Assembly (NCBI GenBank): GCA_937924775.1
Contig: CALDUT010000001.1
Span: forward strand, 682,001 to 746,000
DNA: 64,000 bases
Source: an uncultured Gemmata sp.
Lineage (GTDB): Bacteria; Planctomycetota; Planctomycetia; Gemmatales; Gemmataceae
Reading direction: 5' to 3'
A program made the translations under genes and the position numbers. Within the stretch, counting starts at the first letter, position 1, and each line of letters opens with the position of its first letter. The notes beneath the pieces are model-generated. The model did not search any database. It was not told where the DNA came from and saw only the letters and a list, made by a program, of their open reading frames with translations. This document shows, one piece after another, positions 19,565 through 59,133 of this stretch.

Positions 19565-19724
19565 ATGTCTACTTTTGTCTAGTTAGACTAGCGTGCCAAT
19601 TCCGAGGGAAAAATCATGAAAAAACGATGATTATTCATATGTTCATAAATAATTAGCACTTCAGTGCGACGTTCTAACCAACGCCGACGTTCCACGAGGA
19701 ACATTTTTCAACAAAAGTAGACAT
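19565..19724 (+). repeat. 160-bp inverted-repeat element, copy A
   Basis: The element starts ATGTCTACTTTTGT and ends with its exact reverse complement ACAAAAGTAGACAT. In copy A the symmetry extends about four bases further out with one mismatch (GCGA/GCGG). Inside are a hairpin AATCAT-(9)-ATGATT (19612-19632), GCAC-TTCA-GTGC (19656-19667), and GTTCC-ACGA-GGAAC followed by ATTTTT (19689-19708). It has no coding capacity. It lies between convergent genes (pfp and the TIM-barrel gene). Copies B, D and a decayed copy C lie elsewhere in the window. It could be a MITE or a structured intergenic element. Confidence 0.9.
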
Positions 19725-36286: not shown

Positions 36287-36446
36287 ATGTCTACTTTTGT
36301 TGAAAAGTGTTCCCCGTGGAACGTCGGCGAACGTTAGAATGTCGCACCGAAGGGCTGTTGCTTTATGAACATATGGATAATCATCGTTTTTTCATGATTT
36401 TTCCTCGGAATTTGGCACACTTTTCTAAGTAGACGAAAGTAGACAT
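36287..36446 (-). repeat. 160-bp inverted-repeat element, copy B (reverse orientation)
   Basis: It has the same 160-base length as copies A and D, and the same 14-base ends ATGTCTACTTTTGT and, with one change, AC(G)AAAGTAGACAT. Relative to copy A it is inverted. The long hairpin is at 36379-36399 (AATCAT/ATGATT, 9-base loop) and the GTTCC/GGAAC hairpin at 36309-36322 with loop CCGT on +. It lies between two - strand genes, upstream of the PQQ-like protein and downstream of the Gfo/Idh/MocA gene. By eye it is about 85-90 percent identical to copy A. Confidence 0.9.
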
Positions 36447-46580: not shown

Positions 46581-46738
46581 AGGTCGCCGTTTGCCAAGTC
46601 AGAAAAGCGTGCCCATTGGCCGGAAAAAACCGTGAAAAAGCGATGAGTATTCATATGTTCAATAATGGCCAGGACTTCTGTTCGACATTCTAACAATCGC
46701 CGACGTTCTCCGGGAAACATTGTTCGCCACAAGTCGAC
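46581..46738 (+). repeat. Decayed copy C of the 160-bp element
   Basis: This stretch aligns end to end with copies A, B and D with many changes. Both terminal repeats are eroded (the right end reads AAGTCGAC instead of AAGTAGAC). The inner blocks GCGATGAGTATTCATATGTTC, GACATTCTAAC and CGCCGACGTTC are still clear. The GTTCC/GGAAC hairpin is damaged, but the middle hairpin is still pairable (GGAC-TTCT-GTTC). It lies between two - strand genes. Confidence 0.7.
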
Positions 46739-58973: not shown

Positions 58974-59133
58974 ATGTCTACTTTTGTCTATTTAGAAAAA
59001 CGTGCCAATTCGCGATCAAAATTCATGAAAAATTGATGAATTTATGTATACTCATCAAAGATCAGCACTTCGGCACGACGTTCTAACATCCGCCGACGTT
59101 CCACGTGGAACGTTTTTCAACAAAAGTAGACAT
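58974..59133 (+). repeat. 160-bp inverted-repeat element, copy D
   Basis: It is exactly 160 bases, with perfect 14-base ends ATGTCTACTTTTGT / ACAAAAGTAGACAT. Hairpin 1 is AATTCAT-(9)-ATGAATT (59020-59042), seven pairs against six in copies A and B, with changed bases on both sides. The last hairpin is CGTTCC-ACGT-GGAACG followed by five T (59097-59117), a good intrinsic-terminator shape. It lies between convergent genes (DUF4340 and the S9 peptidase). Confidence 0.9.

Follow-up and report, generated by a model that had tools for sequence, protein, structure and literature searches.

A short dispersed repeat carrying a parS-like palindrome in a Gemmata genome

The stretch of DNA analyzed here (the window, 64 kb) spans positions 682001 to 746000 of contig C1 of G000, the window's own draft genome (4.79 Mb in 27 contigs). 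It contains three full copies of a short repeat, all of class 1 and each 160 bp in length: copy A (19565..19724, + strand), copy B (36287..36446, − strand), and copy C (58974..59133, + strand). An earlier note made from the letters alone had described these copies, and their positions, strands, and lengths were confirmed, as was the existence of one relic (46590..46738, + strand; 76% identity over 149 bp), whose ends are unrecognizable. As had been noticed, the copies start with the 14-bp sequence ATGTCTACTTTTGT and finish with its reverse complement, with a single change, in copy B. The identity between copies A and B, estimated by eye at about 85-90%, was measured as 88% over 160/160 positions, and copy C is 81% identical to copy A over 160/160. 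Six matches to the end 14-mer (up to three mismatches) lie in the window, all within copies A to C; shuffled sequences are expected to give 1.53, and 0 of 100 shuffles reached six. With a simple codon-usage gene caller, all four copies were found between called genes, in agreement with the note. Copy A is flanked by convergent genes, a phosphofructokinase-domain gene (+) and a xylose-isomerase-like TIM-barrel gene (−), and the strand of the gene on the right of copy C differed between two runs of the caller. An Rfam search of the window at the gathering score gave no match.

The copies share an internal palindrome, GTTCCACGTGGAAC, which was absent from the earlier note. It is exact in copy C (59098..59111, +) and has one mismatch in copy A (GTTCCACGAGGAAC; 19689..19702, +) and one in copy B (GTTCCACGGGGAAC; 36309..36322, −), where the counterpart in the sister species G012 is exact. 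In the relic it is decayed, with four mismatches (46705..46718, +). A short box, ATTCTAAC, precedes the palindrome at 36333..36340 (−) in copy B and reads GTTCTAAC at 19671..19678 (+) in copy A and at 59080..59087 (+) in copy C. In an ungapped anchoring of 52 copies, the box occupies columns −18 to −11.

How common is this repeat in the genome? I found at least 52 dispersed copies in G000, 24 in the (+) and 28 in the (−) orientation, together with three sites upstream of the parB gene. The copies were pooled from two DNA queries of different classes, an end search, and a search for the exact GAC-prefixed palindrome. The number is a lower bound because each DNA query scored 40 of 64 candidates; the second query added no locus, as judged by eye. 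The whole-genome search of the ends that the note had proposed gave 50 end-like 14-mers (up to one mismatch) in G000 vs none in a reversed control. All of them have a parS-like site no more than 220 bp away, and they mark 35 distinct loci. These loci, picked by the ends alone, all have the parS-like palindrome (35/35), which is exact in 31 of them.

In the orientation of copy A, the unit consists of phased 10-bp repeats, a spacer, the ATTCTAAC box, the palindrome, and an inverted end. The left end has up to four 10-bp repeats (approximately TTTTGTMTAY), which start mostly at −144, −134, and −124/−123 relative to the palindrome, with a few at −155/−154 and elsewhere. The palindrome is preceded by a stretch close to TTCGGCGCGACATTCTAACNATCGCCGAC, and the inverted right end, close to CAAAANTAGACAT, lies mostly 8 or 10 bp past it. 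Sixty-three copies of G000 and G012 have both ends; 25 of these units are 179 bp in length, 11 are 160 bp, 6 are 189 bp, and the other 21 range from 156 to 190 bp. The unit is AT-rich, with a GC content of 42% vs 62% in the flank beyond. Column counts for the 52 G000 copies revealed that the palindrome and the preceding GAC are nearly invariant (at least 96% in 13 of the 14 columns of the palindrome and 87% in the ninth). In the spacer, most columns stand at 40-85%, and a few A, T, and C columns exceed 90%. Within the genome, the identity between copies reaches 92%. A subfamily (L058, L123, and L128 in G000; L155 and L159 in G012) has the right end CAAAAGCGCCG, or nearly so, in place of CAAAAGTAGACAT.

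parS is the docking site of the chromosome-segregation protein ParB and lies mostly near the replication origin in bacteria. GTTCCACGTGGAAC is the parS core published for Myxococcus xanthus (PMC3899335) and Pseudomonas aeruginosa (PMC7022226). The dispersed copies have this GTTYCACGTGRAAC-type palindrome, exact in 45 of 52 and non-exact in 7 of 52, and it is also non-exact in 8 of the 28 G012 copies. In total, the exact palindrome occurs 48 times in G000, preceded by GAC in 48/48. Three of these sites sit 0.3-0.5 kb upstream of parB, and 45 lie away from it. The lead-in of the sites upstream of parB is near-identical to that of the elements (GACATTCTAACNNTCGCYGAC); two of the three have GACATTCTAACGATCGCTGAC, and the third differs in the first letters. 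The product of parB (C6:98206-99192) has ParB_N, HTH_ParB, and ParB_C domains and is the only ParB match at E≤1e-5 in G000; G012 likewise has one, and the two are 91% identical. Since the copies carry parS and the same sequence lies upstream of the sole detected parB gene, the repeat was taken as a dispersed element carrying parS. When the G000 ParB was aligned to PDB 6s6h (a Caulobacter protein, judging from the residue numbering), R173 and G201 were found to be retained, and these residues are tied to parS rather than NBS specificity in PMC7383237. K171, S172, and R204, helix-turn-helix residues that the same paper calls conserved, are L, D, and K in the G000 ParB. The dispersed copies look like parS in sequence, yet they differ from ordinary origin-proximal parS: the sites are spread widely over a draft genome whose origin is unmapped, although proximity to the origin is typical of parS and not strictly defining.

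The native parS sites by parB (L117:6659-6876; clusters in L118 and L119) also have a ATTCTAAC-like box about two helical turns before parS. Its variants, ATTCTAAC, CTCTAAC, and ATTCTGAC, were observed in G000, in G001, and at one G002 site; the box was not seen at either parB-side site of G008 or of G017. It is possible that the box and parS together form an extended parS at the native sites. The best match to a ParA-type ATPase in G000 (C1:251476-252048; L230, L231) does not adjoin parB, which is on C6, and a weaker AAA_31 match lies at C6:102693, about 3.5 kb from parB.

Gene neighbours were assigned with a purpose-written gene caller based on codon usage. Among the 45 copies with both neighbours called, 27 lie between convergent genes, 16 between co-directional genes, and 2 between divergent genes; six further copies have one side uncalled, and one is inside a called ORF. 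Among 67 background gaps of at least 250 bp from 15 sequences, 9 are convergent, and some of these background gaps contain elements themselves. Thus, convergent gaps are enriched (27/45 vs 9/67; Fisher p 3e-7), and the p value for divergent gaps is 0.07. Summed from the first to the last site within contigs, the stretches covered add up to no less than 1.91 Mb of the 4.79-Mb genome, and the 15 contigs that bear them total 3.93 Mb. A bias toward the origin or the terminus was considered and rejected, because the counts per contig fit a uniform distribution (p 0.22) and the longest site-free run, 380 kb (C10:79-459 kb), has p 0.12. A 20-kb piece of this run has its counterpart at 4.4-6.3 Mb in G008 (10.1 Mb), near the expected terminus. 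A terminus placement of the run is not claimed, since the same piece is scattered in G002, G013, and G017.

Are the copies inherited? G012 has 28 loci outside its parB cluster that were identified through an exact palindrome or through their resemblance to copy A, a set from which at least two more matches (C99:18100 and C65:43399) were left out. Of these loci, 24 share flanking DNA with an element locus of G000 (one of them matches two G000 loci), and the orientation is the same in 24/24. The earlier note had named copies at the same loci in distant relatives as evidence against mobility; here, most of the copies examined in a sister genome are shared by descent. In the 24 shared pairs, the identity is 96% for the palindrome, 87% for the preceding 21 bp, and 61% for the spacer, where shuffled spacers give 53%. 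The palindrome is exact in both copies of 16 pairs, in the G000 copy of 20, and in the G012 copy of 18. The spacers of orthologous copies resemble each other slightly more than re-paired spacers do (0.607 vs 0.582; 5 of 5000 re-pairings reach this value), which fits descent; the median rank of the orthologue is 7 of 28. For 23 of the 24 pairs, from either side, the most similar spacer lies in the copy's own genome, but this comparison is biased upward, as the best of 51 or 27 copies is taken. Later copying or conversion may thus have occurred to some extent; if intact copies served as donors, this could help to preserve parS even when selection does not act on every locus, and the case for such locus-by-locus selection would be weaker. 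Concerted evolution is not demonstrated, as orthologous spacers are the slightly closer ones and the average own-genome copy is closer than the orthologue in only 10/24 (G000) and 8/24 (G012) pairs.

Filled and empty loci were compared with G012, as the note had suggested. The locus of copy B is shared with G012 and filled there, while the syntenic G012 gaps of copies A and C and of the relic have no element; thus, individual sites seem to be dispensable. Gain and loss look the same at these three places because the gap DNA of G012 is not alignable. Four sites of G001 and G004 are close to genes that also neighbour G000 copies; the arrangement is the same for one of them, two are flipped, and one is in a neighbouring gap. 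With such mixed arrangements, these four do not demonstrate descent.

Exact palindromes were counted in 17 relatives besides G000, and sites beside parB were tallied with G013 and G019 left out. G000 has 48 exact palindromes (3 beside parB, 45 away from it), G012 has 24 (4 and 20), G004 has 15 (4 and 11), G001 has 13 (3 and 10), G016 has 9 (3 and 6), and G002 has 4 (2 and 2). G008, G010, G011, G013, G017, and G041 have two each, G019 has one, and five of the 17 relatives (G005, G014, G021, G024, and G044) have none. In five of the six two-site genomes, namely G008, G010, G011, G017, and G041 (G013 being left out), both sites adjoin parB, and the number of exact sites away from parB is 0 in G008, G010, G011, and G017. 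The GAC-prefixed palindrome was matched in 9 of 59 genomes. The ends, which the note had proposed to look for in related planctomycetes, occur as tandem end repeats in only two of 59 genomes (G000 and G012), and a transposase accompanying them was not found.

The earlier note had left two readings, MITEs moved by some transposase or a conserved structural element. The latter is now the better supported, although its key feature, parS, had gone unseen. An ordinary non-autonomous transposon would have captured parS upstream of parB, so that ParB binds it and the host gains nothing; the site would serve the element, through shielding, target choice, or partition of a former carrier plasmid, or would be neutral baggage. 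The terminal inverted repeats typical of MITEs are present, the copies are similar within the genome, they prefer intergenic places, and the loci of copies A and C and of the relic are filled in G000 and without an element in G012. In line with the note, however, no target-site duplication was seen: none of the 44 G000 copies with both ends defined has a direct repeat of at least 4 bp just outside ATGTC...GACAT. Shorter direct repeats at the ends are as rare as expected (2 bp, one observed vs 1.5 expected; 3 bp, one vs 0.7). Age could have erased a duplication, and an AT duplication could lie inside the ends. No transposase-bearing copy was detected, and no insertion sequence or other autonomous element was found among the close end matches searched. 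All end matches in G000 belong to parS elements (compared by script; the tandem ends in the 59 genomes were compared by eye). No copy was found on plasmids, phages, or viral contigs by two BLAST searches that used copy A or by one pattern scan. The loci common to G012 are in the same orientation, and in their copies parS is much better preserved than the spacer. A mere captured parS is an unlikely account of the repeat.

Could the palindrome be something other than a ParB site? It might be the hairpin stem of bidirectional terminators or structured RNAs that act between convergent genes independently of ParB. The convergent location fits this, as does the fact that copies A and B differ only at a loop position of GTTCC-ACGN-GGAAC, and folding gave mean z values of −1.78 (whole unit) and −1.31 (core). 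The spacer, however, has z values of only −0.68/−0.55 on the two strands, Rfam offers nothing in the window, the loop is kept as well in 45 of 52 copies, and the same sequence with its lead-in lies upstream of parB. The folding signal was therefore read as that of the palindrome and the ends, not as an RNA, and such terminators or RNAs are very improbable. Insertion into terminator stems was rejected too, since the flanks of 44 G000 copies pair with −10.47 vs −10.26 after reshuffling, and 88 of 300 reshuffles are as low. Integron attC sites had been considered from the sequence alone and were dropped once parB was found. It is still less probable that the palindrome is the operator of another regulator that shares a parS-like site by chance. 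Weaker ParB-family matches do exist in other genomes of the genus, and I know of no role of the ATTCTAAC box in ParB binding. On the other hand, only one ParB match at E≤1e-5 is present in G000 and only one in G012, and the sites adjoin parB in 7/7 genomes examined for it.

It is therefore probable, judging from sequence comparison, that each repeat is a portable parS unit that was mobile long ago and has been kept as one of many ParB loading sites around the genome. The sequence identity with parS, the linkage to the sole detected ParB, the fixed geometry, and the retention at shared loci are established by the data above. The unit may have spread through some form of copying, probably transposition with a transposase that was lost or went unrecognized, and may have been retained because ParB binds it, with some benefit for the host. 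ParB in general nucleates at parS, is loaded as a CTP-dependent clamp, and slides into the flanks. At each copy, ParB would do the same in the flanking DNA, and the chromosome would carry many ParB platforms instead of one origin-proximal centromere. These platforms might serve multi-site condensin loading or the compaction or anchoring of the nucleoid. The phased end repeats and the fixed spacer suggest that a second protein folds the unit into a defined complex. A bolder and quite tentative idea is a polycentric ParB system in this Gemmata lineage, in which the once-mobile unit has put parS platforms of fixed architecture around much of the chromosome, the single ParB acts nucleoid-wide in a Noc-like or condensin-loading manner in a bacterium that is not known to have FtsZ, and a second protein, bound at the phased ends, forms a defined complex with ParB. 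Against a portable parS unit stand the palindrome mismatches in the window (one in copy A, one in copy B, four in the relic). Moreover, a broad dispersal of parS is expected to be costly, since extra parS copies at mid-arm positions lower fitness in Caulobacter (PMC5815017).

Each part of the repeat is of a known kind, namely parS and a short dispersed repeat. Bacterial MITEs such as Correia, RUP, and ERIC are short, geneless, and intergenic, have terminal inverted repeats, and are dispersed in both orientations, and the present repeats share these traits. Unlike those MITEs, they have no target duplication, no cognate IS was found for them, their spacing is fixed and helical, a chromosomal centromere site lies inside, and many positions are common to two species. 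Compared with the chromosomal ParABS systems of M. xanthus and P. aeruginosa, the 14-bp core is identical and the native cluster likewise lies directly upstream of parB. However, known parS sites are mostly near the origin, with 22 in one 3-kb cluster in M. xanthus, whereas in G000 45 of the exact sites are away from parB, each within a repeat that has its own ends and is mostly 160-189 bp long. The Noc/NBS system of Bacillus subtilis also combines a ParB-fold protein with dispersed palindromic sites, about 70 around most of the chromosome (PMC4331003). Noc, however, is a paralogue of ParB that has a different site and residues of the Q173/R201 type (PMC7383237), whereas the sole detected ParB here has R173/G201 and its site is parS; neither an NBS-type site nor Noc residues were found. 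An engineered transposon also carried parS to many chromosomal places in Caulobacter, but it is described in PMC5815017 as a laboratory construct that maps the tolerance of extra parS, in contrast to the natural spread here. In the open-licence literature searched, I recognized no report of parS on a natural dispersed element, none of a genome whose parS sites away from parB number in the dozens, and none of this union of parts. With about 50 parS copies and one detected ParB, this natural genome allows the origin-proximity rule to be tested directly, suggests a possible route by which a repeat amplifies a centromere site, and is an entry point to chromosome organization in planctomycetes.

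Some minor observations were made in the relatives. The many-site genomes (G000, G012, G016, G004, and G001) are small for the genus, 4.7-6.5 Mb, with G016 being 68% complete, and eight genus members of 6.8-10.1 Mb have 0-4 sites. G007 (6.6 Mb, 82% complete) and G018 (5.8 Mb, 65% complete) have 0 by the GAC-prefixed pattern. The two G002 sites away from parB are L174 (2.27 Mb) and L175 (8.99 Mb), one of which is approximately 11 kb short of the record's end. A G012 locus, L218 (C74:33561), has on its reverse strand near 1409 a lone tandem end repeat upstream of a promoter-like TTGACA/TATAAA stretch; its 2.9 kb contain no parS, the best match having four mismatches. In G001 and G004, dispersed parS sites are carried by other kinds of short repeat that lack the ATGTCTACTTTTGT ends; there are at least two of these kinds, one with TTTTACAA (L079, L081, L083, L084, and L086) and one with GTTGGG (L102, L107, L110, L180, and L182).
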